From positions 35,963,501-36,027,500 of the forward strand of contig CM076152.1 in NCBI GenBank assembly GCA_038025085.1: 64,000 bases of DNA, given 5' to 3'. How positions within the stretch are numbered: position 1 is the first letter of the stretch; every line of letters begins with the position of its first letter. This DNA is from Tetragonia tetragonoides (taxonomy: Eukaryota > Streptophyta > Magnoliopsida > Caryophyllales > Aizoaceae). The notes beneath the pieces were generated by a model. It was not told where the DNA came from and did no database searches. It saw only the letters and a list, made by a program, of their open reading frames with translations. Positions 1,901-50,981 of this stretch are shown piece after piece. The position numbers were made by a program, and so were the translations under genes.

Positions 1901-3429
1901 TGTAGACACCCTAATCGGTTCTCATCCCCTGACACCGCAACGCCCGATGATGATGGTAATGGATTAACATGGACGTAAGTAGAAAAAGACATTGTTCGGA
2001 AATCTAGACCAAATTCCTTGAAACCTCAGTCTGTGGATAGCCCTTGTTATAAGGATTCCAACGCCTTTGACCTTGCCTCAATCAGGTTCCCGGATCAAGA
2101 GATATCGCGTCTCGAAGATTTGGGTCAAAACCGCTCAATCCCGGCCCCTTGGGTCAGCCCAAGGGCAATTTCGTAATTTACAGAGCACAAAAAGTCAAAA
2201 ACCCTAGTCACGCGTGCGCTGTCAAGCCTGCGGCCAACGCGTGACAGCGGGGGCAATTAGGCCAGGCGCTGAGTTTCAGCGGCCAGGCGCTGAGCCTCAG
2301 CGGCAGCCGCGGGCCCTGGCTGCCCTCCTTATGGCCGCTGAACCAGCTTTTTTGGCTGGGCCGAGTTTTGGCGCCGGTTCTTGCCCTAAGCCCCTAATTC
2401 ATCCCCTAACTCTATAAATACTCCCTTTCACCCTCTTTTGCAAGAGGTCAGTCAGTTCACAATTTTGAGAGCATTGAGAGCACATATTTCCCCAAATCAA
2501 AGAGAATTCAGAAATCTGAAGATCCAAGCAAACATTACACCTAGCCTAGCACCCAAGATCGAAGAGCAATCCTAATTCTACTAGTCCTTTTCAAATAGAA
2601 CGTCCAGGTTAACCATCCTGAGGGCCTAATTCTTTATTAAATCTCTTGTTTTACTGTTTATTAATAATGTTTTATTTAGTTTTTGATTATGGTTGAATAA
2701 ATTTGCATGCTTTGGGTTTTGTACATATTTATGCATGCTTAGTTAATATAAAGTTAGCATCTTTTTATTAGTTATGCAAGTTTGCATCTTTTCGTAGTTT
2801 TTGCATGCATATAGTAGCCTCTTAGGTTTGTTTTAGCATAAAGTTATTGTCTTTACATTATTAATATTCGTTTGAAGTTACTAACGGTTTTATTGATGTG
2901 CATATACAATACTTGGCGCGTTTAGCAAAGTTGGTAGGTTGGAGCATTAATTTAATGCTTTATATCTTGTTTATGCTTGTTAATAGTATGCATGTAAATT
3001 GGATATAAATTGTGCAAAGCGATAACATAAGCAATTTGGTTGTTCCTAACCCGCCTAGTTAATTTAGGATCTTGGACGACCGGACTTGTATGGAACCACA
3101 TAGCATAAATAAATATTTGACATGGATAAGCTTAATAGAGGTCGTTTATGCGGGCGATATAGATGATATTCGTTTTGTTTATTTCGTACCTACATCCCCG
3201 AACTCAATATTTAGTCCCCATGGGCAGGAGTCAATTCCCAATAGGAATTGGGGTGCACTTTTGATGGTTTTTAATTGTTTCCTTAAAAATTGGTGGCGGC
3301 TTCTTATTTGCAAATTGTTCCTTGTAATTAATTTGCATCGCATGCAACACATTATTTAAGAACCATTAATTCCAACTAAAAAAAATCGATCCGCGTATTT
3401 AAGGCGCCGGAAAGGCGAGCGTTCTTACA
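1901..3429 (+). repeat. 5' LTR of the Tat element
   Basis: Begins TG and ends CA directly before the primer binding site. It matches 17155-18685 over its full length. It contains a GC-rich segment (about 2210-2345), a TATA box at 2413 and a long AT-rich downstream part. The 95-codon open frame at 3072-3359 is repeated in the other LTR and looks like chance. Confidence 0.95.
2413..2420 (+). promoter_or_regulatory. LTR TATA box (TATAAATA)
   Basis: TATAAATA lies just downstream of the GC-rich segment and upstream of a C/T-rich run, so transcription should begin roughly 30 bases further on. The same motif is at 17668-17675 in the 3' LTR. Confidence 0.7.
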
Positions 3430-3430
3430 G

Positions 3431-3449
3431 TGGCGACTTCACTGGGGAC
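3431..3449 (+). other. Primer binding site, Tat type
   Basis: TGGCGACTTCACTGGGGAC follows the LTR after one spacer base. As I recall, TGGCGACT-type sites primed by tRNA-Arg are usual in Tat/Ogre elements. I could not check the match against a tRNA from this species. Confidence 0.7.
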
Positions 3450-4451
3450 TTATTAAGAGGATGTAATTCGAACACTTATCCATGTCAACAATTTATTTTA
3501 ACTATTTGGTTCAATTAACGTATGTGTTTATTTTCTTTGCTCTTGCATCCATATCATTCATACTGCATGCGCTATCATCGCAAGATGTCGAAAGACATCA
3601 CCACTCTATAAACAGGATTTACCCTTTGGAACATTGTCTATGACTTAGGCCAGTGACCCACTCGGTCCGAATTACCTTTGCACATAGTCATGTTCCACCC
3701 CATGGCATTTACATGTTTCCATTCGAGATGTGTAAAACGGTACGTCTAGTCTTACTATGCACCCCATAGATGACAAAACGCATCCGGTCATGGGTTACCT
3801 TATCCAACCATAGATTGTGTCAACTATTGCATTATGTCCCATAGTCCATATCAAGGTGCTAATTGGTTTACTTGCCATGTTATTATTAATTGTTTCCTTG
3901 CTATGTGATTAATTTCCATAAAATATTAGGACTAGATCCCCCCTTAGGATTCTTTTATTGAGTCTTGGTTAGGAAGCGTTTCCCTTTTGTTTGCTTGTAC
4001 GTTTTGTCAGATTTACAAATAGAGTCTAGGATCTTTTTCCTTTTTTTAGGAAGTAGAATCCCTGTATGATTCCGATGATGCTAGTGACCATGTTAGGAAT
4101 ACGTTCCTCTCCATAAGAATTAGATTGCATGCAAATAATATATTCCTGTCATGATCTTTCACCAAATAAAAAAAAAGAGTCCAATTTCATTCCATATGCA
4201 ATTCAATAGTATATCTTTTTTCCTTAAATTAGGGAATTTCATCCCATATGCAAGTCAAGGGTATTTGTTATTCTAATAAAGTCGAAAGATCATTGACTAG
4301 AATATGCTATTTACACAAAATCGTGTCTTTCCCAAAAGATCACCATGTTGAGGATTAGTGCTAGATTCTTTTCCCACATTTGTTTTAAAATAAAACCTTT
4401 TATTCTGTGGAGGTTCCCATTTATTTCCTATTTTCTTAAACGGGCCTTTTT

Positions 4452-5906
4452 ATGTCCAGAATTGGTAGAAGTAAAGATCCCAGTCCTAGGAAGTGGGAGA
4501 GAGACGAGTCCAGTAAGAGGTTAGTCCGCAAGTTGTCGTTCGAACCTTCACCACAAGCACAGTTCGTGGGCCCCATTTGGCTCGATTACCTTTGCACACC
4601 GCCATTGTCACCTCAAACCTCACTACCCTATTCACCTAAGTCCGCTATGTCTGGAGACGCTGAGAGAACCGCTGACCAAAAGATGGATGACCTTTTAGCC
4701 CAAATGGTCGCCATGAATGCTAGATTCACTGATATGGAAGCCCGTGTCGCCAAGTTGGATCCCCCTACTAAGGATGATGATGAGCCCAAGCCCGATGAGG
4801 AAAAGGCCGAACCCTCCACTAAAGAGGTCCAAGAACTCCAAGCCAAACTGAATAGGCTTGAATCTGTCCTAGGCAACAGTCGTGCCTTCAACGACATGAT
4901 CAGCAATTCAGAAGGCTATGCTCCCCACATCAAGAGAAAATTGCCCACTAAGTTTTCCATGCTTGAAGTTCCCACTTTCAAAGGAACCGACGATCCACAA
5001 GATCACATTAGAGCTTTTACTACTGCATTCGGCCTTAGAGGTATTGAACAAGAGCTGTATGTTCACCTCTTTCCCCAAATCTTGGATCCTGCTGTCAGGG
5101 CCTGGTTCTTCAAGTTGCCCACCCAAAAGTTAGAAAAATGGGAAGATTTATCCACATTGTTCCTCCAGAGATATGCTGACAATGTTTTGCCACCCATGAC
5201 ATTAAGAGAGTTGGACATCACCAAGAAAGGTGATAAAGAAGGGTTCACCAATTTTGTGAGAAGATGGATAACCAAGGTAGCTGAAATGATTGATCGCCCA
5301 TCTGAAAGGGATCAAATCAGAATGCTAGTCCAAAATTTGGCATCCGAATACCGTGAACACATGAAGTTTCAGCCCATAACCACCTATGCCCAATTAACTG
5401 AAGTAGGCATGGCTATTGAAGATGATCAACTCCAAAGAGAGAAGAACAAGGTCACTTACAATAACAACACAAGTGGATATAAGGATAAGAAATACACTAA
5501 TACCAACCACGCCTACACAAGTAGAGGAAATGAAGTGAACGCCATAGCTGATAGGCGTCCAAGAAGGTACACTCCCCTCGGAATGACTTATGTCAAAGCT
5601 CTAGACAAGTTGATCAAAGGAGACTATCTACATCCTTTTGGGCCTACTCCCAATCCACCTGTAGAGAAAAGATCACCATATTTGAACGAATCTGCATTCT
5701 GCAAATACCATAGGGGGCGCGGGCACGATACTGAAAAGTGTTACACTCTCAAAGATAAAATCCAATATTTGTTTGATAATGGCACAATACCATTGCCCAA
5801 AGATGCACCACCACCCAGCAACAATATTAATCCCCTCGGGAATTCTTTTGCCATTGACATAGAAGAAGGGTTTGATCCATCTTATCTGATCACACCTATT
5901 GGATAG
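4452..5906 (+). CDS. Ty3/Tat Gag polyprotein
   Basis: An intact 484-aa frame. It has an acidic, coiled-coil-like region around residues 70-140 (RTADQKMDDLLAQMVAMN and following), then the Retrotrans_gag core at about 165-310 (PTFKGTDDPQDHIRAF, LQRYADN, LVQNL). Near 417-430 is the compact Cys/His motif CKYHRGRGHDTEKC, the zinc-knuckle-like motif usual for Tat Gag. Gag would form the capsid-like particle that packages the element's RNA. The frame ends with TAG and pol starts in another frame about 50 bp later, as in Tat elements where gag and pol are separate. I take the first ATG because no coding signal precedes it. This is the only major sense gene of the element without an obvious lesion. 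Confidence 0.9.
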   Translation: MSRIGRSKDPSPRKWERDESSKRLVRKLSFEPSPQAQFVGPIWLDYLCTPPLSPQTSLPYSPKSAMSGDAERTADQKMDDLLAQMVAMNARFTDMEARVAKLDPPTKDDDEPKPDEEKAEPSTKEVQELQAKLNRLESVLGNSRAFNDMISNSEGYAPHIKRKLPTKFSMLEVPTFKGTDDPQDHIRAFTTAFGLRGIEQELYVHLFPQILDPAVRAWFFKLPTQKLEKWEDLSTLFLQRYADNVLPPMTLRELDITKKGDKEGFTNFVRRWITKVAEMIDRPSERDQIRMLVQNLASEYREHMKFQPITTYAQLTEVGMAIEDDQLQREKNKVTYNNNTSGYKDKKYTNTNHAYTSRGNEVNAIADRRPRRYTPLGMTYVKALDKLIKGDYLHPFGPTPNPPVEKRSPYLNESAFCKYHRGRGHDTEKCYTLKDKIQYLFDNGTIPLPKDAPPPSNNINPLGNSFAIDIEEGFDPSYLITPIG

Positions 5907-5956
5907 GCCATACTGCCATACCCAAGCCCAAGGCCCACGCTGGGCGTCTGCGGCCT

Positions 5957-7020
5957 TTGGGATACGATGAGGAAGATAATGGGTCATATACTGATCCAGA
6001 AGATGTGTTGACTCCTCAAGTCCATGACATAGCTAATGGCAAAGCCTGGTATGATGTCTTCGGTGACGAGAAAGAAGAGGATGATAAAGCCCTAAACTAT
6101 CTCACTAGATCAGGACGCCAATTCAGGCCCGAAAACATCTATATGGATCCATCTCAAATCCAACCCGTAGAGCCTGTGGCCATCCCCAATAAGGATTCAG
6201 CCCAAAGAGAAATGGCAAAAGAGGACGATGGGACCAACATCCTCAAGCAACTACAAAGAACAAAAGCTGATATATCCATTGGGCAACTGTTGACCACTTC
6301 TATCACTCATAGAAGGGCCGTGCTAGAGGCCTTGAATGCAACTACCATTTCTCCAAATGCTACCCCTGAAGAGGTAGTCAACCTCCTGGTCCAAAGAAAG
6401 TCATCCACGTCCGTCACTTTTTCTGACAAAGACCTTCCACCTGAGGGTATTCACCACAACAAAGTCCTTTATCTTACTGTAATCTGTCAACAAAGACAAG
6501 TCCCTATGACTTTAGTTGACAATGGCTCTGCTGTAAATGTATGCCCCTTGAGGACTGCTGAACACCTCAAAATAGACTGCAACAACCCGCGCATTCCGCA
6601 CAAGGGCTAAGGGCTTACGATAATTCCAAGAGGAATGTATTGGGTACCTTCTCCATGAATATCGATATTGGGCCCATCGAGAAAATGGTCCAGTTCCATG
6701 TAATTAACATTTCAGCCACCTTCAACCTACTCTTAGGAAGGCCTTGGTTACACGGGCTAAATGTTGTAGCCTCGACCTTGCATCAAAAGGTAAAGCTATC
6801 CTTGGCAGGATCCATTTTGGAAGTCTGCGCTGATACTATGGTAGCCCAGATTGAGAAAGCTCCAGTCCTAAAGATAGAGCATAATGAGCAAGACGAAGAG
6901 TTATGGGGCTTCGAGAAGATAGCCTTCATAGAGACGATAGAGCCCACACTTAATGTAGATGCTTTACTCAGAAGCAAGGCCACTTCCCAGGCACCATTTT
7001 GGGCCCTCATCCCAAGGTAG
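5957..7020 (+). pseudogene. Ty3/Tat pol, N-terminal part with protease (frameshifted)
   Basis: Retropepsin-type aspartic protease region of pol. The active-site segment reads VDNGSAVNVCP (about 6513-6545), with Asn in place of the usual Thr/Gly after the catalytic Asp. The C-terminal protease motif LLGRPWLHG is at about 6733-6759. The reading frame moves near 6600: the first part (5957-6610) runs into a TAA, and the continuation YDNSKR...GTFSMN is in another frame. A further shift lies near 7000. The sequence is clearly protease-like but cannot be read as one protein. Confidence 0.85.
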
Positions 7021-7817
7021 CTCAAACCTGTTGGAATACCAAGATCAAAAATGATCTATTTGGGCTGGGCTACAAGCCCACAAGGCAAGAAGTTAGGGCC
7101 TACATATCCAAAGTGATGGCTAAGAAAAGAGTCCGTGCGGCCAACAAACCTGTTCCACACAACATGGACCCTTATCCCCTCACCTTCAATGGGCAATTTC
7201 TTCAGGAAGGCGACCCATATCCTTACTATGGATTCCCTGAACCATACAGAATTAACGGGATCCTAATACCAGGCTTTGATGCATATCAAGACTGCTTCAT
7301 CATGAGTGAAGACACACCCATACCTCCTAATGAGGACCAATCCACTAAATATTGGGCTAAAGACATGGCACCCAACGACCCTGGGCTCTTATTTGGCGAA
7401 GAACGTCGTCAGTATGACGAGACTACTACCAAACTTCCCCTTACTATGTTTGTTAATGAAGGTTTCGACCCGTCCAAGCTGATCGCCCCAATCGGGCCCG
7501 ATCGCACCACCTGGAAGCACGAGACGAAGTGGACTCCAGTCAAGGGAGCCAAGTACAAGTTCACAATCCGCAACGGTCCTACAGGAGGACCTATTTCTGA
7601 TTCTGAGTCTGATTCTGAGTCCGAGTCTGATCCTGAGTCTGTTATCCTAGAAGTGTCGGGTAGTCCACCCCAGTCTATTCCTTCTAAGGTCCTTAGTGAT
7701 GACCTCATTGATGTATTGTCCGCTTCTATTAATATTATGAACGTCGATTTTGCTTTTTTGGCTTGCCTCACTGCTAATAATTCAGAAAATAATGGAATTG
7801 CCAAAAGAAGTTATTAA
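6999..7817 (+). pseudogene. Ty3/Tat pol linker between protease and RT
   Basis: A 272-codon open frame beginning at the second frame change. It repeats a Gag-like phrase (EGFDPSKLIAPIG, compare EGFDPSYLITPIG at the Gag C-terminus) and has a Ser/Asp/Glu-rich run (SDSESDSESESDPES) at about 7595-7640. This type of linker is expected between protease and RT in Tat pol. I see no catalytic domain in it. It is out of frame with both neighbours. Confidence 0.7.
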
Positions 7818-8850
7818 AGCACTAATCGAACATGCGCAAAAGACTTCAATAGTCGAAGAAACGGAGACAATAAACATTGCAACTAATGATGAGCCTCGCC
7901 ACGTGCAAATAGGCTTGTCTTTAACATCTAATGAACGCAAACAATTCGTAACACTCCTAAAGAATTATACGGATGTTTTCGCCTGGTCCTACAAGGACAT
8001 GCCAGGCATAGACCGCAAAATTGCTCAGCATACCATTCCACTAAACCCTGACTGCAAACCAGTCAAGCAAAAGTTAAGGAGAATGAAGCCAGAGTGGGCT
8101 CTAAAGATCAAAAAAGAAGTTCAGAAACAACTAGAGGCAGACTTCATAAGAGTGGCCAATTACCCCGATTGGGTAGCCAACATCGTCTGAGTCCCAAAAA
8201 ATGATGGACGAGTTCGAATGTGTATAGATTTTAGGGACTTGAACAAAGCAAGTCCGAAAGACGACTTTCCCTTACCTCACATAGACGTCTTAGTAGATAA
8301 CACCGCCGGACACGCCCTTCTATCATTTATGGACGGGTACGCAGGATATAACCAGGTCCTAATGGCCAAATAAGACAAAGAGAAAACCACTTTTATCACA
8401 CAGTGGGGCACTTATTGCTATACAGTAATGACGTTTGGGCTTAAGAATGCAGGAGCCACATACCAAAGAACCGCTACAACCTTACTCCACGACATGATGC
8501 ATAAGGAGGCTGAAGTGTATGTAGATGACATGATCATAAAGTCCAAAGACAGAGAAGGGCACGTACCCTCACTTCAAAAGTTCTTTGACAGGCTTAGGAA
8601 GTACAATATGAGGCTTAATCCCAAAAAGTGCGCATTCGGAGTCACATCCGGCAAACTTCTAGGATTCGTCATAAGCACCAAAGGAATAGAAATTGATCCA
8701 TCCAAGATCAAAGCCATAATAGACATGCCACCTCCAAAGACAGAGAAAGAAATAAAAGGCTTTTTAGGGAGAATCCAGTACATTAGCAGGTTCATTTCCA
8801 AATTAACTATCACATGCGAGCCCATATTCAAGAACTCAAAAAAGAGGTAA
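7750..8850 (+). pseudogene. Ty3/Tat reverse transcriptase with two internal stops
   Basis: The RT domain is read in one frame from about 7800 to 8850. Recognisable blocks are the N-terminal AWSYKDMPGID, the DFRDLNKASPKDDFPLPHID block, SFMDGYAGYNQV with the first catalytic Asp, FGLKNAGATYQR, and the catalytic YVDDM at 8518-8532, followed by KCAFGV and LGF. TGA at 8188-8190 and TAA at 8371-8373 interrupt it in frame, and a frame change follows near 8830. The catalytic Asp residues are kept, so decay is by nonsense and indel mutations rather than loss of the active site. Confidence 0.92.
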
Positions 8851-9884
8851 AGATAGAATGGGATGAACAATGCCAAAAGGCCTTTGACAAAATTAAGGCC
8901 TATCTATCCGAACCACCTGTTCTAGTACCGCCCATTCCAGGCATGCCTCTAATCCTCTGCCTTACAGTCACAGAAATGTCAATGGGGGTCATGCTAGCCC
9001 AAGAAGTAGATAAGGAAGAGAAAGCTATATATTATGTGAGCAAGAACTTTCTGGAATACGAAACCCGCTACTCATCCCTAGAAAAGACATGCTTAGCTTT
9101 GGTAGCAACTACTAAAAAGCTACGGCATTACATGCTCCAGCACACGATCCACATATGATCAAGAGAAAATCCTTTGAAATACATATTCGAAAAGCCCATA
9201 CTGAACGGTAGGATAGCGAGGTGGACTGTTCTTCTCTCGGAGTTCGACCTTAAATTCGAACACCAAAATGCCATAAAAGGGCATGCTATCTCAGAATATT
9301 TAGCCGATCAGGCCATACATGAATCAGATCACAAGGAAGAATATCACTTTCCGGACAAAAGGGTTATGACCTTACATACTGAAACTTGGCAATTATACTT
9401 CGATGGAGCATCCAACCAAAAGGGTTTCGGGGTAGGAGTACTAATAGTATCCCCCGAAGGTGTACACACACCTATTTCAGTCAAACTGGACCATGAGGTT
9501 ACAAATAATGGCGCCGAGTATGAAGCTTGCATAATAGGACTGCAATCCGACATAAGCCTTGGCATCAAAACACTCCGAATCTATGGGGACTCGTCACTCA
9601 TAATTAACCAAATTTCCAAAGTATGGAAGGTTAAAATTGAATCCCTGGCACTCTACCAGGAATACTTAGATAAGATCATAGTGTATTTCAATCAAATACA
9701 CTTTACATACCTTCCACGAGAAGATAATCAGTTCGCAGACGCCTTGGCTAAATTAGCAAGCATGATCAATATACCTGAAACCATCCGGATGATGCCCATC
9801 TGTGTACAAAGGAGATCTGAGCCTTCATATTGTGACACTTTGGAAGTATTCTACGACGAAGAAGACGAATGGTACACTGAATAA
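8814..9884 (+). pseudogene. RNase H and second (archaeal-type) RNase H of the Tat element
   Basis: The first part (8814-9158) is the RT-connected RNase H, with the YYVSK and YSSLEKTCLAL motifs. It is cut by an in-frame TGA at 9156. The same frame continues with KYIFEKPILNGRIARW. From about 9385 a second RNase H begins: LYFDGASNQKG with the first Asp, NNGAEYEACIIGL with the Glu, IYGDSSLIINQ, and REDNQFADALAKLAS with the last Asp. Two RNase H domains in tandem are the hallmark of the Tat lineage. The frame changes again just after 9884. Confidence 0.9.
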
Positions 9885-9889
9885 GGAAT

Positions 9890-10535
9890 CTGCTTGTTTA
9901 CCAATTCTACCCTCCTGATTCTAGCCGTAGAGCCCAGAAAGCGCTCAGAAGGCTCGCGGCCCAATTCTTAGAAGTACAAGGTCAAATATACAAGAAAAGC
10001 CCAGATGGAGTTAACCTCCTATGCCTAGGTACTGAAATGGCCCATAAGGTCCTAAGAGATGTACATGCAGGAGTATGTGAACCGCACATGAACAATATGA
10101 TGCTATCCAGGAAAATAATAAGGCTGGGGTATTATTGGACAACAATGGAAAAAGACTGTTGTGAATTTGTCAAAAGATGCGTACAATGCCAGACCCGTGC
10201 AAATCTGCAACATCTACCACCAAGCCCATTATATACCTTCACCTCACCCTGGCCTTTTTCGGCGTGGGGAATCGACATCATCGGTAAAATAATCCCAACA
10301 GAAAAAGGAGGACACGAATATATCCTAGTCGCAATCGACTACTTTACTAAATGGGTCGAAGCTCAATCATACGCGAAGCTCAAAGCATAACACGTGGTCA
10401 AGTTCATTAAGAATAACATAATAGCCAGATATGGGGTTCCCCAAGAGATCATCAATGACAATGGATCACACTTCATGAAAGAAGTGATTGAGCTGTTAGC
10501 CCAGTTCAAAATCCAGCATCGAAAGTCGTCTCCCT
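9890..10535 (+). pseudogene. Integrase, internally deleted
   Basis: The zinc-binding region includes HKVLRDVHAGVCEPHM and CVQCQ. The rve core includes the first catalytic Asp in SAWGIDIIG (about 10263-10290) and the second in NDNGSHF (about 10456-10476). A TAA at 10388 interrupts it. After IQHRKSSP the frame stops (about 10537). The remainder of the core with the catalytic Glu is absent, and the sequence jumps to what looks like the normal pol C-terminal end (DQLKRFYA then stop, about 10556-10582). A deletion therefore removed the end of the core and most of the C-terminal domain. Confidence 0.85.
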
Positions 10536-10544
10536 AAAATTAGA

Positions 10545-10998
10545 GGATAAACATGGATCAATTAAAGAGGTTCTATGCTTAGGCAAGACACCCAATATAG
10601 CACTTTTGAGAGGCCCACACAAGGCTAACTAATCCCGAAAAAAAAAAAAGGGGATTTAATGTTAAAAAAAACAAACGGATAAGAACTACGAGCGGCCTGA
10701 TTCCCCCAAAAGGATACGTAGGACAACCAAATTACAATTGGGCCCGGCCCCTTCATCAAATTCACATTCAAAAGTTGTTAAAAAAAATTGTGCACATAAT
10801 AAACACAAGGTTGCAATAATAAAATAAGCATGTCTCCATAAATAATAATAAAGTCCATTACAAGACTTGGCAATTCCAAAATAATAAAAACAAATTAACT
10901 AAATCTAAAAAAGGAGGCACATCACCCTTATTGAATTTAAAGCAAATAAAAGGCAATCCTAAGCTAAGACATGCTCCAAAAGAGTATTTCCTAATTGG
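10545..10998. other. Non-coding spacer after integrase
   Basis: Starts with the short remnant of the pol C-terminus. It then has an A-rich region and a segment around 10683-10735 (AACTACGAGCGGCCTGATTC, then GGATACGTAGG) that resembles a non-coding motif I recall from this position in Tat/Ogre elements. No gene is visible. Confidence 0.5.
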
Positions 10999-12547
10999 CT
11001 ACTCCGTAGCTTCGGTAGTAGGGACAACATCCTCCATGGGTTCATCAACCTTTGGGTCTTCCGCTTCACGTTCCTTGGGAGCCCATGTCTCTCGAACCAC
11101 GGGCTCTTCTTCTTTTTCAACCTCCATTAGAGGAGCACTTGAGGAGGCTTTATGATCATTGGCCCGAATTTGGGGCTTCTCTTCTGGCTTAGTAGTAATC
11201 TTGGCTAGAGCTTTCTTGGCCTTCGGGTTGAGACACTCTTCACATGTTTGACTCCATTTTGCTTACCCTTCCCTCTAGGATCATTAGGGTTAGAAAGCCT
11301 TAAGCTCGCCTTGACCATTGGGCCTTAAGATCGTCCGGTTCGGATTTCCTACATGCACGACGACCTTCCATAGTCTTACAATCCATCCAACCTTCATAAG
11401 CTGAAGATATGACCTTTGGGGCCTTAATGTGAGGAATTCTCCACTTCGGGCGACGGTCCCATGCACACTCCCAAGATCTCACCATACTAATAGTCAAAAC
11501 CCGGGTAGCAGGCGCAACATTATCCTTCTGTGGGATAATCTGGCGTTTCCCATATTGCCGCATGATACGGCTAGGAAATAAGTAAGTCATATTTTGAAGG
11601 CCAAGGATTTGATAATATCCCATCTCCTTGCTACATCCGATTGCGGATTTTAGGCCCCACCACTTGACAGTCCATCTTAGCAAAGGGCAAGCTTTAAGAT
11701 ATCCACGCCACTCATCAATGGTGGATTCATAATAATGCCTTCGGCGGGCAGGAAACTGCTTTGGTTGGTATTTGAGCGCATTAGCCGGCCTCTCAATGAA
11801 GCACATATGCTCCAAAAGTCATATCTACAATAACAAACAAACACAAAAATAATAAAGTTAGGTATCCATTAAAGATTCAAACTTTGTAAAATATCCAAAG
11901 CTATTATTCAAGCACTCACCTGAAGGAGAAGAGGGCTTCCCGTCCATCCACCAGGCGATGGTTCTTGTTTCTTGCGGTCCAAGCACATTACGGTTTCACC
12001 AAGAAAAAGAGACATAGGGGTAAAATCGTTTTGAATTTGTTCAACAATACTAAGCATACAAGTTTTACCATTATTACCTCCACCAACAAAGAGGTACCTA
12101 TATAAGAGACATAAGATAAAAGCACGCCTATAATATATCTCATTATGATCATCCCTTACCTTGGGGAAAAAGATATCAATCACACCATTGAGGTCTAGCT
12201 CACCGGTTCTAGCCACAGAAGAGGCTTGTGTTGGGGATAAATTGAGATACCTTTTATAGTAACCTTCAAGGTTGACCTCAAGCCATGGAGTTGCAGGAGC
12301 TTGATCATGAGGGAACCCAATTATGGCGGCAAATTCTTCGGGAAGAGGACACAGTTCGTTATACCCGAATCTAAAAACATGAAGCTTGTCATCCCAAAAT
12401 TCAACCGCAGCCTCAAGAAGGTTCCAAACAACTTGAACTTGCTTCAGGTGGAAGAGAGCATTCAAGTAAAAAGGCACAAGTCTCATCCTCTCTTCAGGGG
12501 GTCATGGATTGCAACCACTTATCAAACTTAACCTCAAAAATTGTCAT
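10999..12547 (-). pseudogene. Antisense plant-mobile-domain (PMD/MAIL-like) gene 1 inside the retrotransposon
   Basis: Read on the minus strand. The likely ATG is at 12547. Exon 1 runs to 11920, followed by GTGAGT; a 95-bp intron ends TTGTAG at 11825; exon 2 starts at 11824 and continues to a TAG at 10999-11001. Exon 1 has a typical plant mobile domain signature (VWNLLEAAVEFWDDKLHVF, PLPEEFAAIIGFP, FILCLLYRYLFV); exon 2 continues with FIERPANAL, WRGYLKACPLLRW and WDRRPKW, then a Lys/Glu/Pro-rich tail. Lesions are one extra base in a C run near 12500, a stop at the second codon of exon 2 where the family normally has Trp, and frame changes near 11310 and 11240. PMD proteins of the MAIN/MAIL group are nuclear and act with a PP7-type phosphatase in silencing and growth in Arabidopsis. 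A role here is inference. Confidence 0.8.
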
Positions 12548-12643
12548 GGCTGAAATCTAAATTAATTGGGAGTTTCTCTCTCTAAAAAGCTCTATTGCTA
12601 GTGAATTATGAAGCTGATGTCCCAAAATCGGACTAACCGAAGG

Positions 12644-12651
12644 CTTATATA
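12644..12651 (-). promoter_or_regulatory. TATA box for antisense PMD gene 1
   Basis: The minus strand reads CCCTATATAAGCC about 100 bp upstream of the ATG at 12547, a good plant TATA box at a sensible distance. It suggests the antisense gene has its own promoter. Confidence 0.65.
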
Positions 12652-12689
12652 GGGCTCACACGAAAAAAGACGAAAATATGGCAACCCGT

Positions 12690-12860
12690 TGGAAAAAGGC
12701 CTCAGCGGCCCATAGGGCAGCCGCCGAAGGCTCGGCGGCCAGGATATGGCAGCCAAGGCCCAGCGGCTCAGCCGCCCAGCTTCAGCGGCCCGGCCGCCGA
12801 GTCTGGCGGCCCCTCTTTTGACCCCTGCTCCTTCGCGTCAGCCGCTTAGTGCCTTCGCCG
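12690..12860 (-). promoter_or_regulatory. GC-rich GGCCGC segment upstream of PMD gene 1
   Basis: Dense in GGCCGCTGA/GCGGCC phrases in an otherwise AT-rich region, lying directly upstream of the TATA box at 12651-12644. Segments of the same character precede the LTR TATA box (2210-2345, 17460-17600) and PMD gene 2 (16380-16530). Confidence 0.5.
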
Positions 12861-13305
12861 AGCCCTTTTTTCGAGACAACCCTCTCCTACCCGATTTTGG
12901 ACACTTTCCTTAACCGTTTTGGACTCCAATTTGGCTCAGTTTCCTATTTTTTCTATTATTCCTATTTTTCTATTATTTCCTTAATTATTTATGGGAACCC
13001 CACAATTTTTTTATTTCTTTTTGGATGATTACCATCTTTTATTTTTATTACTCTCTTTTTCTACTTATTAATTTCATTTCAATTTTTGCACCCCTTTCTT
13101 TTTTCATTTTTTTTAGGGGGATAGGGTACACCCAATTTTAACCTTTTGGCTGTACGATTTTTTGCTCCATGGCTATTACTTGCGCTTTTTGCTTGACTAC
13201 CTGTGCATTTGCATTAGCCTAATTATATGCAGGGACCAATAAACGACAATATATTACAAAGCAAAGTCCGAATGTTTGTTCAACACAAATGTTCAAGAAT
13301 GTATT
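12861..13305. other. AT-rich spacer between the two antisense genes
   Basis: T-rich non-coding sequence with no recognisable gene. It would contain the 3' end of PMD gene 2 and the distal upstream region of PMD gene 1. Confidence 0.6.
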
Positions 13306-16073
13306 TCATACAAATACATTATCATAAAAATCATCACCCGCATCAGCATCCGTACGGAGCACCTCAAAATGATCCTCCGACTTCCGGGGCTCATCACCAA
13401 AGATCGACGCCGCCAACTGGCCCGAGTCAAAGGAAGAATGACGGGCAGGCTCCTGATATGAACACCCCTCTCCGGCATAACTCGAATCATACCCCCACGA
13501 AGAACGAGGAGGCATGGTAGGCATCATAGGAGAAGGGAAAGGGGGCTGGTAATAAAGACCGCCATAAGGAGCATACCCCGCATACCCAGGATAAGAAGGA
13601 TACATCGGCATAGGCATAGGAGTAGGCTCCACAAACTGAGTCATCCTACTCCCACCAGGACGGTCCGTCCGATGTACAGGCTCCCTCTCTCTCCTAGGAC
13701 TCTCCCTACGAGGGCTCCTCTCGTGAGAAGGGCTATGCTCAGGAGAGCTCACGACCTCATCATCAGACATAACCACCTGTCGTGACCGACGAGGAAGGGG
13801 TCGACGGTACTCAACCTGCAACCCACCAAACATATAAGATACATTTCTCAAAGCATACAACTTTGAAGATGCAAAGTCAAGCTTACCTTATCCAAGTCAA
13901 CTCTCGAGCAAGTACCCTTCGAAAGAGCTCGAGATATCCAGGACTTCATAGCCTGCATCATCTTGAAGACCTTCCCGGTCTGCTCACAGTCAAGCTGCAC
14001 AAAGGAAAAGTCAATACAAGCATGAAAGCAGTAAAAATCACATGCAACAGGTAAAATGACGAATTTACCCCTGGATGGCCAACTGAAAGAGGAAGGCCCT
14101 GGATGTCCTCATCAAGGTCCTCCGTCATCGGGGCCTCTCCCCAACACTCCTTCCCGCCATAGTCCCGACCTCGGACCCGCATATCCGGGACATTCACGTC
14201 GATGGCATCAACCCGAGGCTCCTATGAAGCAAAGAAGGTAAGCAACCAACAAAACACAAAAGGCATAGAATATCCAATATAAAGTTCGTACCTTCAATCC
14301 CACAAATGAAGGCATGAGGCGATCACGACGAAACTACTCGTAGTTCCCCGCAAGGTCCTCCGCAGGATCCCTCAAATACCGCATAGCATCTGAGCCCACC
14401 ATGGCCTCCGCAACCTGCTCGTGAGACAAGCACCTCACCAAAAACATGGTCGAGGGAGGATCCAAAGGCATCCTCGGTCCCACTACATCAGGATAAACCT
14501 GACGGAAGATCCGCTCTCCCAAATACCACTCAAAAGAGAACGGACCTGCAATTAGGATCCTCTGGCGGTCTATCGCCCTAGATGCAAGGACGGCATCCGA
14601 AGCCAACCCATGGTACTTCGCCCATGGGAAGTAGTCAATCTACGCAACTATGCAACATAAGATATTTCCACACCAAGAAAAATAATCCATGCAACAAAAA
14701 GCAAAATTGCGTTACCTTGTGCCAGTCTAGGCGCAGAAGGGCCTCCCTGTACTGCTGAAGGGTCTGGAAGGGCGCAGGATCCCTATGACGCCATGCCCTG
14801 CAAATCGGGAAATCCGACTCCCAGCCCGTAGGCGCCATGTCCGGAAAATGCTCAAAGAACCAAGGCTACATCGAAACATGAAATTAAGCACCATACACTT
14901 AAATCATGCAAAGCATCAAATAGATACAAAAGCAAAACGCACCTGCAAGACCTTCCAAAAATCGCACAAGCTCACGGGAGGAAGAGTCGACTACTTGTAT
15001 CCCTCGTCATTCACGCGGCAAGCAAACCGCATGCACCTCAAGAGGTTGGCGTGGCCCGGCAACCCCCAGTTGTACTCTCTCACTCTCTCCCAATCCAACA
15101 ACCTAGGGTGGTAAATAGCATGAATATGCTCTCCCTTGTCACCAAAGATGGTGATGGCAAGGAGATAGGCGATGAACATCCTCGCCTTCTGCTCCACCGA
15201 GGTAGTTCTCTTGTACCTCGCATCAGTCAAAGCAGCGTAAAACTCGCTATAGGGACGATAATGGTGACCCCAGGTGTTCCCCCAAGGGCCGAACAACTCC
15301 ACCATCTCAGTCTTACGCTTCCAGATGGAAACGTCATACACAATGGGCGTACCCATGCAAGGTACCCCAGTCAGCATAGCAAACTCCGATGGAGTGATCA
15401 TCATCTCCCCATTAGGGAAGTGAAACGTGTTGGTAGTATCCCAAAAACGTTCCAAAGACAAGCGGACAATACACCTATTGACTCGCTCAACCGAGTCTGC
15501 CGCTTTCAAAAGGGGCCCAAACCCCGCACCCAAAACTGCACTTTGCACCTCTTTGGGCAAGATCTTAAAAAGCTTCACCGAAGAACAATAATTACCATGG
15601 GGCTTCAAATTCCCATCGGGTTCCTATGATCAAATTTGCAACCTCTTAGGTTCACATTTCAACCAAATGTTCAATCCTAAGCATGTTTCTAAGTTCGTTC
15701 AAGCCGCGCAAGATCACATGCGCTACAAACTTGACAATTGCATACAATCTCTACACAAATTCTACTCAAGGTCAAGCACATAAACTAAAATTCAATGCAT
15801 AAAACTATGAATTCAAAGTTTGAGGCTTACCACAAACTTGGAGGCACGGGAACTCAAGTGAGACTCCGGTCGAAAGAGCAACTCCGACCGATCCCAAACG
15901 ATGTCGGGCATCCTATCCGACCGTGTATACCTATATTAAGGAAAAGCCACATTAGGCTTCCTCTTGGAAGGCTTGACATGGGAGGGGAAAGCTTTGGTGA
16001 AGATGTTAATTTCTTCAACCTCTTCCCGAACCTCGGCCCTTCTACTCCTTTTTTTCACCAATTTAGGAGCCAT
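13306..16073 (-). pseudogene. Antisense plant-mobile-domain (PMD/MAIL-like) gene 2, seven exons, three nonsense codons
   Basis: On the minus strand seven exons can be followed: 16073-15831, 15623-14943, 14865-14716, 14639-14292, 14221-14069, 13994-13887 and 13815-13306. Every exon length is a multiple of three, all six introns are phase 0 with GT...AG ends, and the total is 730 codons plus stop. Exon 1 is basic (MAPKLVKKRSRRAE). Exon 2 holds the mobile domain core (FHFPNGEMMITPSEFAMLTG, YLLAITIFGDKG, WGLPGHANLLR). Exon 3 has WFFEHFPDMAP. The last exon is Arg/Ser-rich, then Pro/Tyr/Met-rich. The only lesions are in-frame stops: TAA in exon 1 (codon 46), TAG late in exon 2 and TAG late in exon 4. 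The gene is probably captured host DNA. Its introns survive retrotransposition because their splice signals are on the strand opposite the element's RNA. Confidence 0.85.
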
Positions 16074-16379
16074 GAAGAATTATGAGCAAAGCAAGCAAAA
16101 GCAAACAAGCAAAAATGGAGAATTGGGATTTTCTCTCTCCAAGGATTTCAAAAACCCACTCTCAAATTCACTCCAAATTTGTGAGAAATCACAAATAAAC
16201 TTCAAATTATGCAAAGATTATGCAAACCCAAGCAAATGCAAGCAAAAAGAAGCAAATTTGAGCAAGAAATGAAGGTTGGGCAACAATGGAGGTAGAGAGA
16301 GAGAGTCTCGAAGTTTTGGGGAAAAAATGACCCAAAACTCGGCTCCTCACACAAAAATACCCGATTTCGCCTCTGAACC

Positions 16380-16530
16380 GGCCCAGCCGCCAGGCTGGGC
16401 GGCCCCTTTGGTGGCCTTCGCACGACAATCCGAGCCGATGAGCGGGCCCGTAAAGGCCGCCCAGCGCTCGGCAGCCCTGCACATGGCCGCCGAACCGATT
16501 TTTTCGTTCGCCCTTCTCGGAGCGGGCCCA
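16380..16530 (-). promoter_or_regulatory. GC-rich segment upstream of PMD gene 2
   Basis: GCGGCC/GGCCGC-rich DNA 300-450 bp upstream of the ATG at 16073. Just downstream on the minus strand is TTTTTGTGTGAGGAGCC, similar to TTTTTTCGTGTGAGCCC next to the TATA box of PMD gene 1. I do not see an equally strong TATA box here; an AT-rich TATTTAAAT is at about 16584-16592. Confidence 0.45.
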
Positions 16531-16749
16531 CGAGTTCAAATTCTGCGCAGGATTGCATTTCTCGACCGTTGGAAGCCCGAGAGATTTAAATATGTCACCC
16601 AAAATGACTCTTTTGCCCCCGCAGCTTGGGTTTCCTATCCCAGAGACCCAATATTATCTATTTTTTGCAGGCGCGAGCCTTATATCTAATCTATTACAGG
16701 CACAGGCACTTTATTTTATTTTGCAGGCACAATTTTCCTAAACACAAAA

Positions 16750-17013
16750 GCAGAGCAACATACCTCTCTTTGACGTTGAGGCTATTAAAATTAGCGTCAC
16801 GTTGACACCCGCTGAAGCAGAGCAACACAACGCTCTTTGACGTTGAGCCTATTAAAATTAGCGTCACGTTGACAACAACTGAAGCAGAGCAACGCAACGC
16901 TCTTTGACGTTGACGCTATCAAAATGAGCGTCACGTTGGCACCCGCAAAGCAGAGCAACGCAACGCTCTTTGACGATGAAGCTATTAAAATTAGCATCGC
17001 GTCTGCCCCGCAA
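16750..17013. repeat. Four-copy ~67-bp tandem repeat near the 3' end of the element
   Basis: GCAGAGCAAC recurs at 16750, 16817, 16884 and 16950, giving periods of 67, 67 and 66 bp. Each unit contains an imperfect palindrome: ACGTTGACGCTA and TAGCGTCACGT arms around an AAAAT loop. A tandem repeat between the last gene and the polypurine tract is a known feature of Retand-type Tat elements. The minus-strand open frames here are a by-product of the repeat. Confidence 0.9.
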
Positions 17014-17140
17014 AACAGGTAACCCTGACCACAGGCGGTCAGGAGTCTATCCTTTCTTTCCTTCTAGCATAAAGCATTTTTCAAACACATTGCAGGCATT
17101 TTTAGCAAATACTTTGACCTTTGCTTTTACAAGCTCGACC

Positions 17141-17154
17141 AAAGTGGGGGCTTC
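17141..17154 (+). other. Polypurine tract
   Basis: AAAGTGGGGGCTTC directly before the 3' LTR at 17155. It is the expected primer site for plus-strand DNA synthesis. Confidence 0.75.
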
Positions 17155-18685
17155 TGTAGACACCCTAATCGGTTCTCATCCCCTGACACCGCAACGCCCG
17201 ATGATGATGGTAATGGATTAACATGGACGTAAGTAGAAAAGGACATTGCTCGAAAATCTAGACCAAATTCCTTGAAACCTCAGTCTTTGGATAGCCCTTG
17301 TTATAAGGATTCCAACGCCTTTGACCTTGCCTCAATCAGGTTCCCGGATCAAGAGATATCGCGTCTCGAACATTTGGGTCAAAATCGCTCAATCCCAGCC
17401 CCTTGGGTCAGCCCAAGGGCAATTTCGTAATTTACAGAGCACAAAAAGTCAAAAACCCTAGTCACGCGCGCGCCGTCAGGCCCGACGGTCTTCGCAGGCT
17501 GCTCGGCGGCCAACGCGTGACAGCAGGGGCCATTAGGCCAGCCACTGGCCCCAGCGGCAGCCGCGGGCCCTGGCTGCCCTCCGTGTGGCCGCTGAACCAG
17601 TTTTTTGGCTGGGCCGAGTTTTGGCGTCGGGCTTATTGCCCTAAGCCCCTAATTCGTCCCCTAACTCTATAAATACTCTCTTTCACCCTCTTTTGCAAGA
17701 GGTCAGTCAGTTCACAATTTTGAGATCATTGAGAGCACATATTTCCCCAAATCAAAGAGAATTCAGAAATCTGAAGATCGAAGCAAGCATTACACCTAGC
17801 CTAGCACCCAAGATCGAAGAGCAATCCTAATTATACTAGTCCCGTTCGAATAGAACGTCCAGGTTAACCATCTTGAGGGCCTAATTCTTTATTAAATCTC
17901 TTGTTTTACTGTTTATTAATCATGTTTTATTTAGCTTTTGATTATGGTTGAATAAATTTGCATGCTTTAGGTTTTGTACATAATTATGCATGCTTAGTTA
18001 ATATAAAGTTAGCATCTTTTTATTAGTTTATGCAAGTTTGCATCTTTTCGTAGTTTTTGCATGCATATAGTAGCCTCTTAGGTTTGTTTTAGCATAAAGT
18101 TATTGTCTTTACATTATTAATATTCGTTTGAAGTTACTAACGGTTTTATTGATGTGCATATACAATACTTGGCGCGTTTAGCAAAGTTGGTAGGTTGGAG
18201 CGTTAATTTAATGCTTTATATCTTGTTTATGCTTGTTAATAGTATGCATGTAAATTGGATATAAATTATGCAAAGCGATAACATAGGTAATTTGGTTGTT
18301 CCTAACTCGCCTAGTTAATTTAGGATCTTGGACGACCGGACATGTATGGAACCACATAGCATAAATAAATATTTGACATGGATAAGCTTAATAGAGGCCG
18401 TTTATGCGGGCGATATAGATGAGATTCGTTTTGTTTATTTCGTACCTACATCCCCGAACTCAATATTTAGTCTTCATGGGCATGAGTCAATTCCCAATAG
18501 GAATTGGGGTGCACTTTTGATGGTTTCCAATTGTTTCCTTAAAAATTGGTGGCGGCTTCTTATTTACATATTGTTCCTTATAATTAATTTGAATCGCATG
18601 CAACACATTATTTAAGAACCATTAATTTCAACTAAAAAAAATCGATCCGCATATTTAAGACGCTGGAAAGACAAGGGTTCTTACA
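17155..18685 (+). repeat. 3' LTR of the Tat element
   Basis: A 1,531-bp copy of the 5' LTR with the same TG...CA ends. It is followed by the target duplication CTATG at 18686-18690. It has extra bases in the GC-rich segment around 17480-17520 compared with the 5' LTR, and a TATA box at 17668-17675. Confidence 0.95.
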
Positions 18686-28320: not shown

Positions 28321-28846
28321 AGTAGAGGTGGGGGCAGGTTATGTTTTTTTATTTTTATTTTTTGTTTTGATAGATTAGCAATTTAGCATTCAATTGATAG
28401 AACAGAACCCAGAAAAGCGGGCTCTTTTGGGTATTTTCTGGCAATTTTTTGACAATTTTTTTGTTGTGTGGTGTCAATGAAGCTTCTGTGTTCTCTCTCA
28501 AATCAAGTGGGAGAAAGGTCTTTTGGAAGAAAATAAATTTGGTCAAAAGTTCCCCTTTTGCCCTTGATATTGAAAGGAATCTCAATCCACCGATTTTGGA
28601 TTTGCCCCTTTTTTGCAATATTTAGGGTTTTTGTGAGGGGGGCAAACAATTTGACTAGGGATTGGTATGTGAAAAATAAAGAAAAGAAGTTCGTACACAT
28701 TTAAAGGAATAGGGGCAAGTAATCTAAGATTCTCTCTCTTTTTTTGTAAAATATTGTTAATTATTGTTGTCCTCTTTTGTCATTTAGGAAAGTTTTGTGA
28801 TTGTAAAAACTAGTACATTTTAGGATAAAAAACGTTGAATTTTATA

Positions 28847-29511
28847 GCACAATTTGGTGAAAACCACCTAAAAAGTTACACTTTTTGTCCAGTATCCTCT
28901 GAATCGTTGCTATTTGTTCAGTACTATCTTTAATGTTACAAACGTCCTGAAAGTCACACCTTAAGTGAATTTTCGGCCAAATCCCTTGATTTTCTTCCCA
29001 TTTTACCCTCACGTGTCCCTCATGTGACTTTTAAATAATTTGACCAACTAATTAAAAACTTATTTGACCAAGCTTTTATTTATCTATTTGTAATTAAATT
29101 GTTTGACCAAATAAACCCAAAAATTTTCCCTTTTCCAAAACACTCGACTCTCCTCTCTTCTCCCTTGATCTGTTCTCCCTCTACCATTGTTGTGTTTTCT
29201 CCACTTTCTCTCTCTTCCATTGTCGTTATTTCTCTGCCATCGTGAGGTAAAAAATCTTCTCGTCTTTTCTACCTCTTCTCCTATTTTATTTTCATATGTT
29301 TCTCTCTCTTCAATTTTTTCTCCCAATTTCTGACTGAATTAGGGTTTGTTTGATTTTCTTTGATTTTGTAAGTTGAAAGATATGTCAAGCTCCAATTCAA
29401 CCCATTTAGAGGGAGCGAGATGATGAGAGACAGAGATGACGAGAGAGATAGAGATGACGAGAGAGAGAAAGAGTACATGCATTGAAGCTATTACAGAGGA
29501 CGGAAATGGAG

Positions 29512-29553
<42 letters not shown>

Positions 29554-29874
29554 CAGTCAACTTTTTTGACTGAATGGGGGGTGGGTGAAAATTAAATTAA
29601 TTCGGTTTAATTCATTTGTTTTAGTTTATTGAGTTTAGTTATTTGCATTTCTATTCTTGATTTATTTAATTATTTGGTCAAATCAATTAAAAGTTACATG
29701 AGGGACACGTGAGGGTAAAATAGGAAGAAAATCAAGGAATTTGGGCGGAAATTCACTTAAGGTGTGACTTTCAGGGCGTTTGTAACATTAAAGGTGGTAT
29801 TGAACAAATAGCAATGATTCAGGGGGTAATGGACAAAAAGTGTAACTTTTTAGCTGGTTTTCACCAAATTGCGC
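28847..29874. mobile_element. Mutator-like foldback element with ~210-bp inverted arms and 9-bp target duplication
   Basis: GCACAATTTGGTGAAAACCA at 28847 is mirrored by the right end at 29874. The inverted match extends about 210 bp inward on each side (to about 29060 and from about 29665), including ATGAGGGACACGTGAGGGTA in both arms. A perfect 9-bp duplication AATTTTATA stands at 28838-28846 and 29875-29883. Long arms plus a 9-bp duplication define a TIR-type Mutator non-autonomous element. The interior has a GA microsatellite and no transposase. Confidence 0.92.
29517..29551. repeat. GA dinucleotide microsatellite
   Basis: An almost pure run of GA inside the interior of the Mutator-like element. 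Confidence 0.9.
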
Positions 29875-29883
29875 AATTTTATA

Positions 29884-48798: not shown

Positions 48799-49556
48799 TG
48801 TTGGGGAAAACTACGGTATTTACCCACAATCACAACAATAGATAATCGGAAAAATAAAGTGCAAAAACCCGAAAACAACACAAACAATTTTACGTGGAAA
48901 ACCACTCTCAATTAGGGGAAAAACCACGGTGCGGATCTCCACGCACTAAAATATGATTCACTATAATAATCAAGAGTACAAAGGCAACACTCACAAGATC
49001 AAGCAACAAGTAAACAAACTATCTTTGGTAATAGTACAAATTGACAAACTCTAACTCAATTTGGTACTCCCACAAAACCAAAGATACACCCACAAATACC
49101 TGTTGATGACCGATCCTAATACTCCGATTTTCTTCACCCAAACAAACCGAATCAACCGTGAACTAGAACAAACCTCTTTGGAGAAATACTCAATTTCTCT
49201 CACACTTTGTTTGTCTCTCACTCACTTGGCTCTCCCTTCTTTCGTTTTGTTTGGGCTTCCTTTTACTGCCAAACTCAATCACTCAGCCATTGCAAAAACA
49301 AAGGGCTTGCCCCTTTTATATTCAATCATCAACAACTAAAGAAGACCAAAAGGCTAAGACCTTTTGTTTCCCAATCATCAACTAAAGAAAACCAAAAGGC
49401 TTCAGCCTTTTTGTTTTCCCAACTTTTTAACTTCCTTTTTTTTTTCTTTTGTTTTTCTTTTCTTTTTCTTTTTGTTCTATTTTATTTTCTTTACAAAACT
49501 AAAATAAAATAAAACACAACTAAATATTATTTGGTATTTGGGGCGTTACCTCAACA
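48799..49556 (-). repeat. 3' LTR of the TR-GAG-like element
   Basis: The left copy in window coordinates. Its first six bases on the minus strand (TGTTGA) provide the last codon and the stop of the gag-protease frame. Both ends match the copy at 50982-51740. Confidence 0.92.
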
Positions 49557-50897
49557 AATCCTCCCTCGACCCAAATCACCAAATACTTCCACCTTGTCCG
49601 AGAAACGGACCTTCTTCTTGGCCTTGCTCCTCCCTACGCAATGACCCTCAACATAGCACAAGTTGTTCTCCGCCTTCTTTCCTTGCACAATCAAAGTAGC
49701 ACCACGATACACTTTGCACCACCTTCCTGTACCAATGTATCTACACCCTTGCGATGTCAACTCACCCAACGAAATCACGTTGACACGAGCATCGGGTACA
49801 TACCTCACATTGTGGAAAGTTCTAGTCACACCACCATGGAGCTCAATGCGGATGCTTCCCATCCCTTTGGCCTTCATCTTACCACTCCCCATGTTGAAGT
49901 CACCATACTCACCATCTTGGCACAAAGTATCAAACATAGCATGGTCTCTACAAATGTGAACCGAAGCGCCGGAGTCCAACACCCAACTCTCTTGGCTTTC
50001 CTTCCCCTCATTGTTACTAGCCAAGAACAACTCCTTATTACCATCACAAGACATAATTACATTAGAGGAACCGCTATCATCATCAATTTTGGTCTTACCC
50101 ATCTTCTCTTGCAGCTGCTTGAAACTCTTCAAATCATCTCTCATCTTTGGGCAACGACTCTGAATGTGACCCTTCTCACCACAATAGTAACACTCCACGT
50201 TACTAAAGTCTCTCGCGCGCGATTTCGACCTACTTCTCGGGCCACCACCTCTTCTCTCATGATTCCTCCCTCTTTCGGACACCTCCGCAGCTAGTACTCT
50301 ATCTCCTCCATCACTTGAAGAGATACCATCAACCTGCAACATCATCCGATCATTTTCTCTCAACACTGTCATTGCTTCATCTAGTGTAATCTCTGTCCTC
50401 CCTACAAGTAATGTCTGCACAATTGGTCTGTAGGACTTAGGTAGTGAAGCCAACAATAACAATGCCTCCTCCTGATCGGAGATCTTCTCATCTGCATTTC
50501 TCAACTGACATACTAGCTGGTTAAAACTGTTAATGTGGTCCTGCAACGTTGTACCTTGCTCCATCTTTAGCTGGTACAACTCATATCTCAAACAAAGCTT
50601 GTTAGTCAGTGACTTTGATGCATATACACTCTGGAGCTTATCCAACAACTTCTTTGGATCTGTCTCAGTCAAGTAATTATACTTGATCTCCGGAGCCATA
50701 GCTAATCTAATAGTACTGACAGCTTTCTTCTTCTTCGATGTCCATTGGGCATCGGTCACCTCACTAGGCTTTGTCTCATCTAAAGCCTCATCTAAATTTT
50801 GTTGAACCAACAAATCCTCAACCGTACTCTTCCACACAGTAAAATTAATTTTACCATCAAACAAAGGAATATCAAATTTGGGCACACTACCAGACAT
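49551..50897 (-). CDS. Copia Gag-protease polyprotein, intact
   Basis: 448 aa from the ATG at 50897, chosen because MSGSVPKFDIPLFDGKINF is the usual Copia Gag start. It contains the UBN2/Retrotran_gag region (about 20-200), a basic Arg/Ser-rich stretch (about 225-240), the zinc knuckle CYYCGEKGHIQSRC, the protease active site WVLDSGASVHIC and a pre-integrase-like segment (VRYVPDARVNVISLGEL, NNLCYVEG). It then runs without stop through the polypurine tract and ends on TGTTGA, the first six bases of the 3' LTR. It would make particles and a protease but no reverse transcriptase. No lesion is visible. Confidence 0.92.
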   Translation of the reverse strand: MSGSVPKFDIPLFDGKINFTVWKSTVEDLLVQQNLDEALDETKPSEVTDAQWTSKKKKAVSTIRLAMAPEIKYNYLTETDPKKLLDKLQSVYASKSLTNKLCLRYELYQLKMEQGTTLQDHINSFNQLVCQLRNADEKISDQEEALLLLASLPKSYRPIVQTLLVGRTEITLDEAMTVLRENDRMMLQVDGISSSDGGDRVLAAEVSERGRNHERRGGGPRSRSKSRARDFSNVECYYCGEKGHIQSRCPKMRDDLKSFKQLQEKMGKTKIDDDSGSSNVIMSCDGNKELFLASNNEGKESQESWVLDSGASVHICRDHAMFDTLCQDGEYGDFNMGSGKMKAKGMGSIRIELHGGVTRTFHNVRYVPDARVNVISLGELTSQGCRYIGTGRWCKVYRGATLIVQGKKAENNLCYVEGHCVGRSKAKKKVRFSDKVEVFGDLGRGRIC

Positions 50898-50981
50898 GTT
50901 ACTTGCACAAAATAATTCCTCCTTCAACAAATACAGTAATTTTCCCACCACCGATCCTACAACCAAAAGCTCTGATACCAC

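Follow-up and report, generated by a model that had tools for sequence, protein, structure and literature searches.

An antisense pair of intron-bearing genes related to the plant mobile domain in a Tat retrotransposon family of Tetragonia tetragonoides

The element and its two antisense genes

The window analyzed here is a 64,000-nucleotide stretch of the Tetragonia tetragonoides genome (positions 35963501-36027500 of contig C14, in an assembly of 752.8 Mb and 27 contigs). It contains a long terminal repeat (LTR) retrotransposon, at 1901-18685, that carries two genes, here called A and B, on the strand opposite to gag and pol, between the integrase remnant and the 3′ LTR. Gene A is predicted to encode a plant mobile domain (PMD) protein, and gene B is filed as a putative DUF7745-like relative of PMD. 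The pair recurs in other copies of the element and in a diverged second family, and purifying selection acted on both proteins as the family spread. The original prediction had called two minus-strand genes, one with a single intron and one with six; the same ends and intron counts were recovered, and they held up under codon, splice, indel and frame controls. The features are as follows, with open reading frame abbreviated as ORF, reverse transcriptase as RT and ribonuclease H as RH.

1901-3431, plus strand: 5′ LTR (blastn), TG...CA ends read by eye, CTATG immediately before
4452-5906, plus strand: gag ORF, Retrotrans_gag 15.6 bits, below the cut-off of 24.1
8814-9158, plus strand: first RH, read by eye, as was the RT
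9174-9884, plus strand: additional RNase H (aRH), between RT-RH and integrase, RVT_3 72.7 bits, RNase_H 34.1 bits
10037-10625, plus strand: integrase remnant, Integrase_H2C2 29.6 bits, 3′ end by eye
10999-11824, minus strand: gene B exon 2, interrupted in the window copy, weak PMD C-terminal part
11825-11919, minus strand: gene B intron, phase 0, at the aligned position of gene A intron 2 and of the host PMD intron
11920-12547, minus strand: gene B exon 1, frame broken close to the 5′ end in the window copy, DUF7745 below cut-off, from a 16-sibling alignment
12644-12651, minus strand: TATA box, 104 nt ahead of the gene B ATG
13306-13815, minus strand: gene A exon 7, with the stop and a tail rich in Ser/Arg and Pro/Tyr (gene model and sibling alignment)
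13887-13994, minus strand: gene A exon 6 (gene model and sibling alignment)
14069-14221, minus strand: gene A exon 5 (gene model and sibling alignment)
14292-14639, minus strand: gene A exon 4, encoding the C-terminal portion of the PMD region, no Pfam match alone
14716-14865, minus strand: gene A exon 3, flanked by the two introns common to the host PMD gene pair
14943-15623, minus strand: gene A exon 2, PMD core, PF10536 above and DUF1985 below cut-off
15831-16073, minus strand: gene A exon 1, MAPKL start, the same start at three diverged loci
16748-17014, plus strand: tandem array, about four units of 67 bp, lying between gene A and the 3′ LTR and a candidate for binding
17155-18685, plus strand: 3′ LTR (blastn, ends by eye), CTATG immediately after

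The two LTRs are 94.3% identical over 1540 columns (blastn of the two ends), and the CTATG on both flanks is a 5-bp target site duplication of the element. A purine tract, GTGGGGGCTTC, adjoins the 3′ LTR on its upstream side, and the primer binding site, TGGCGACTTCACTGGGGAC, is one that we take to resemble tRNA-Arg. A second RNase H besides RH, lying between RH and integrase in angiosperm clades, is given as a mark of the Tat lineage (PMC6317226). In the window, the RVT_3 and RNase_H matches at 9174-9884 stand ahead of H2C2 at 10037, the LTRs have TG..CA ends and a target site duplication, and gag and pol share a strand (gag scoring below cut-off and RT read by eye). Because the aRH precedes the integrase, as described in that paper, the sequence places the element in the Tat lineage of Ty3/gypsy. 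About 530 bp of the integrase is gone at 10536/10545 in the window copy and is present in siblings (related copies elsewhere in the genome) that align on both sides.

Gene A runs from an ATG at 16073 to a stop at 13306; its seven exons are all multiples of 3 nt, and its six GT-AG introns are all in phase 0. Exon 4 has two possible acceptors, of which the frame-keeping one was chosen. The protein passes the curated cut-off for PMD (PF10536; 56.3 against 34.9 bits) and stays under that for DUF1985 (24.6 against 35.1 bits), so it was not classed as VANC. Pfam searches of exon 4 from three siblings and of exon 7 from one matched no family. The window copy is broken by three in-frame stops. Uninterrupted copies exist, since 3 of 18 aligned siblings are free of in-frame stops and odd-length exons, one of the three lacking about 40 codons.

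Gene B extends from an ATG at 12547 to a stop at 10999 and has one phase-0 intron (11825-11919). Its frame in the window copy is broken near the 5′ end and again directly past the acceptor; among alignment rows with letters at these sites, the intron GT is intact in 15 of 15 and the AG in 16 of 16. Exon 2 reaches 14.4 bits against PF10536, below the cut-off of 34.9, and the best of four sibling pieces reaches 18.3. Against DUF7745 (PF24924; cut-off 26) gene B scores 22.2 bits in the window and 24.0 in one sibling; all 13 members of an alignment termed A2 match with E up to 0.1, and other relatives in the genome score above the cut-off. Homology with the PMD superfamily is indicated by an hhalign comparison of the A and B profiles (E 1.1e-5, probability 82%), by blastp to host PMD proteins and by a common intron. 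The claim of PMD signatures in both genes therefore stands for A; B falls below the cut-off, yet belongs to the wider superfamily. At the TATA box of gene B, 14 of the 16 rows with letters have exactly TATATAAG. Collinear short repeats occur in the 5′ flanks of B (12564-12823) and A (16121-16416), possibly a duplicated promoter.

Selection on both proteins and spread of the pair

A first look with gene A exon 2 as query produced 6346 candidates, and 150 of these were scored. Twenty siblings were fetched and 18 aligned over gene A, two being dropped by length rules, and diversity figures are for the window copy plus these 18. The siblings were picked by similarity to exon 2, so the sample favors that exon. 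Exon diversity in gene A was 0.051, 0.050 and 0.135 at codon positions 1, 2 and 3, and splice dinucleotides were intact in 218 of 226 cases, with GC scored as a good donor. Counting shared indels once for every sibling carrying them, there were 27 indel events in 2193 exon bases versus 109 in 575 intron bases; 24 of the 27 were not multiples of three, as expected from decay after insertion. Intron diversity was less tidy (0.068-0.192): introns 1, 2, 3, 5 and 6 fall below third codon positions, so introns do not change faster throughout.

Ratios of nonsynonymous to synonymous substitution rates (dN/dS) between copies indicate that the genes are real. In-frame values were 0.223 for A and 0.272 and 0.211 for the two exons of B; the pol domains aRH and RH gave 0.119 and 0.074. 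As a range, 0.18-0.27 in frame compares with 1.09-1.45 when either gene was read one or two bases off frame. Variants were then split into shared and singleton classes, which stand for the period of element copying and the period after insertion. Synonymous to nonsynonymous counts were 221:105 (A) and 83:35 (B) for shared variants, versus 212:463 (A) and 97:222 (B) for singletons, and the contrast survived omission of gene A exon 2 (159:86 shared, 141:343 singleton). Because shared variants are mostly synonymous and singletons are not, both proteins were under purifying selection during the spread of the family, weaker than that on the pol domains. Chance ORFs are ruled out by the reading-frame and intron controls.

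The same evidence bears on whether the antisense transcript itself could matter, through double-stranded RNA that adjusts how far the element is silenced. This has been suggested for antisense ORFs generally (PMC7264820) and would suit the conserved TATA box of B, but it is very improbable as the main explanation, since the codon-position pattern, frame-shift controls, dN/dS, intact splice sites and conservation of protein rather than DNA between families need a protein function.

Both genes are in place in 16 of the 20 siblings, and the other four are without B within the fetched stretch; at least two units of the 67-bp array are present in 16 of 20. In a sample of eight places chosen by aRH instead, 2-kb stretches contained B at seven, one with just 248 nt, and 3′ exons of A at five. 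A DNA pattern from gene A exon 2 occurs at no fewer than 449 places genome-wide (227+222, up to 3 mismatches; control 0), a floor, as 14 of 18 siblings fall within 3 mismatches of that pattern. The best 150 exon-2 matches are distributed unevenly, with 133 on contigs C4 and C10-C16 and 17 on C1-C3 and C5-C9, which looks like subgenome-biased expansion; C2 alone has 12 of the first 100 of the 449 pattern places, so the second contig set is far from empty.

The module also exists in a second, diverged family. The genome contains 90 DUF7745 matches; four loci were picked, and at three of them A exons lie upstream of B in the same order (exons 1-7 at L040, all except 5 at L039, 1-4 at L041; L042 has B only). 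These exons share 28-49% amino-acid identity with gene A and give no blastn match at 1e-10, and their readable junctions fall in the same places and the same phase. Two loci were extended, and both have aRH and integrase on the opposite strand, with 61-68% amino-acid identity. Since this second family has A and B in the same order and with the same junctions, next to aRH and integrase, the A-B module is judged to be old. Occurrence in siblings and in the diverged family rules out a one-off nested insertion, and the antisense pair is family-wide as predicted. The check proposed with it, whether both genes are always present and are intact in some copies, is answered in part by the 16 siblings with both and the three with an uninterrupted A; the window copies are both broken. 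Four single-frame DUF7745 loci related to gene B (L031-L034) were also seen; a search of about 1.5 kb around them did not find exon 2 of gene A.

Shared introns, ancestry and neighboring sequence

An alignment was made of the spliced A (two families) and B proteins with those of the host PMD genes L037 (C13) and L048 (C7). The host genes, which lie outside the element, resemble a homeologous pair and were counted as one gene. All five sequences have a first splice at column 255, and all except B a second at column 321, each in phase 0; judged by eye, L035 is spliced at that first position too. The diverged A copy has four stops in exon 2 and its alignment there is rough, with the exon end clear. 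In pairwise blastp with composition correction off, A matched L037 and L048 at E values of 2.0e-14 to 2.1e-11, and B at 2.9e-9 to 3.6e-9. Because exact splice positions and phases coincide between A, B and the host genes, element and host versions descend, as judged from these alignments, from an intron-bearing PMD gene. The shared introns tell of common ancestry and not of the direction of transfer.

Other host PMD genes vary in this respect: the L046 and L047 group is without the first intron, the dispersed L038 family has the second alone, and L043-L045 come from clusters in which PMD reads in one frame. Such many-gene clusters lie at C9:42.07-42.32 Mb and C15:4.42-4.61 Mb; taken with the C7/C13 pair and the exon-2 contig skew, the clusters on C9/C15 suggest an allotetraploid with 8+8 chromosomes. 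The dispersed family of L038 (C15:38726800-38728500) numbers dozens of copies, and most of them contain a single in-frame TAG; in L038 itself, by eye, this TAG fits an unspliced phase-0 intron ahead of VVWLPY, the second shared intron.

In trees, A and B formed separate clades (support 98-100), each with proteins from other plants including Rhododendron, and since the two were already separate in this company, neither is a recent capture by this family. The best tree placed A on the host side and B apart; the approximately unbiased test did not reject a single host clade (p 0.356), and the tool warned that long branches meet. A second tree had four new rows but was without B_L032, B_L034 and B_P0006, which the first had included; L036 and L037 are in neither, and the diverged A row was flagged for odd composition. 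Proteins P0020, P0021, P0034 and P0060 (Rhododendron, quinoa, spinach), which NCBI names MAINTENANCE OF MERISTEMS-like, match the gene A profile, and some proteins so named may be mis-named element genes.

The original prediction had the element capturing two host genes, or duplicating one. Relationship to host PMD genes is upheld; capture is one of two possible directions, and the tree cannot choose between two captures and one capture followed by duplication. A plausible if tentative account is that one captured or ancestral PMD gene was duplicated in tandem in an early element and then diverged. This would explain the column-255 intron and phase common to A and B, the hhalign match between their profiles, and 5′ flanks more alike than shuffled sequence (score 542 versus a mean of 387, standard deviation 26, maximum 463 in 300 shuffles). 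The intron is also present in host genes, however, and so is not specific to duplication, the best tree splits A from B, though with the caveats just given, and GC-rich composition may explain part of the flank likeness. Two independent captures of host PMD genes would account for the deep, separate clades, and the shared introns are consistent with unspliced host DNA or RNA having been taken up; we consider this unlikely. Against it stands the reverse course, from element to host, which is just as possible and to which Ikeda et al. lean (PMC5418596).

Elsewhere in the window, several minus-strand ORFs at 34575-60116 form, by eye, a tandem cytochrome P450 cluster, with a copia-like gag ORF (49551-50981, by eye) amid them. 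An inverted repeat at 28844-29877 has arms of 213 nt, 91% complementary, with 608 nt between.

A structural lead to function

Others are said to credit Steinbauerova et al., in 2011, with PMD in the extra ORFs of gypsy elements. PMD is reported in extra ORFs of 57% of Ogre elements (PMC6317226), and PMD-A1 and PMD-A2 are described as clades encoded by Gypsy elements only (Ikeda et al. 2017, PMC5418596). Our element is like these Ogre/Tat elements in having PMD-coding extra genes; the accessible published descriptions are without two PMD-superfamily genes per element, introns, selection or splice positions shared with the host. The TRP28 ORFs of Retand likewise lie antisense between pol and the 3′ LTR, often with tandem repeats in the region, and are conserved across families, but their domain is Transposase_28, and PMD, plant mobile domain and intron go unmentioned in the available text (PMC11963269). 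The AlkB-carrying giant Gypsy of Phalaenopsis is also of Tat type and keeps an extra domain over many copies; that domain is an RNA demethylase, and a PMD pair is not mentioned in the part of the paper available (PMC9289625). The literature within reach (partial texts, exclusive of supplements and most subscription journals) yielded nothing linking PMD to the VANC21 fold, to an A-B pair or to shared introns.

For the predicted fold of gene A, the sole strong structural neighbor is, putatively, part of VANC21, the anti-silencing DNA-binding protein of VANDAL21; sequence identity in the matched region is 13%. VANDAL21 belongs to the DNA transposons whereas this element is a retrotransposon, and the likeness is one of predicted fold: sequence searches of the PDB did not find VANC21. 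Foldseek against the PDB gave no significant match, and 9lnj was absent among the 50 matches listed. A structure from a shallow 12-sequence alignment (predicted local distance difference test score 55.7) was not used. From the fold match we infer that gene A encodes, in its PMD, a VANC21-type DNA-binding domain. The role against silencing that the original prediction proposed gains indirect support from this match and from the sub-threshold DUF1985 score.

In the model that we propose, to which we give a probability of about 45%, A and B are an ancient conserved accessory module of the Tat family, and the VANC21-like PMD of A binds the element's own DNA and lifts silencing or sets expression. 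A and B would be read off the opposite strand and spliced, as the gene models have it. A, perhaps partnered by B, would bind the element's own non-coding DNA, with the 67-bp array by the 3′ LTR as candidate target, and binding would lift host silencing or otherwise set expression of the element. The genomic RNA is the sense strand, and antisense introns are not spliced from it; they therefore persist through every round of copying. A broader proposal strikes us as doubtful, namely that PMDs have a VANC-type sequence-specific DNA-binding fold, that the pair, long carried by Tat elements, are antisense, spliced, self-targeted anti-silencing factors, and that the host silencing proteins MAIN and MAIL1 derive from that same family of intron-bearing genes.

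It is possible that A and B were selected for something other than anti-silencing: as MAIN/MAIL1-like proteins that keep copy number down by repression or work on host chromatin, or in nuclear import, integration site choice or packaging. Selection and conservation fit any function that the element needs, the best-studied PMD proteins, Arabidopsis MAIN and MAIL1, act in support of silencing (PMC5418596), and other Tat elements have antisense genes without known role (PMC7264820, PMC11963269). Set against this, the sole strong structural neighbor of A, a putative one, binds DNA and counters silencing, and the element's tandem array belongs to the general type of sequence targeted by VANC proteins.

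Taken together, the module is real, ancient and selected; PMD-carrying Tat elements were already known, and VANC21 is a strong lead to function. PMD has been called a domain of unknown function (PMC8616336), and earlier papers have already put forward that transposable elements counter silencing with PMD proteins of their own (PMC5418596, PMC8616336). Host members are needed for transposon silencing, and through VANC21 there is now a directly testable idea, that the protein binds DNA in the repeats of its own element. How element and host PMDs are related by descent is a question that Ikeda et al. call fully open (PMC5418596) and to which the shared introns are relevant, and antisense carriage lets a retroelement retain intron-bearing genes over the long term. 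If PMD does have a VANC-type fold, attack and defense would have been made from one fold.

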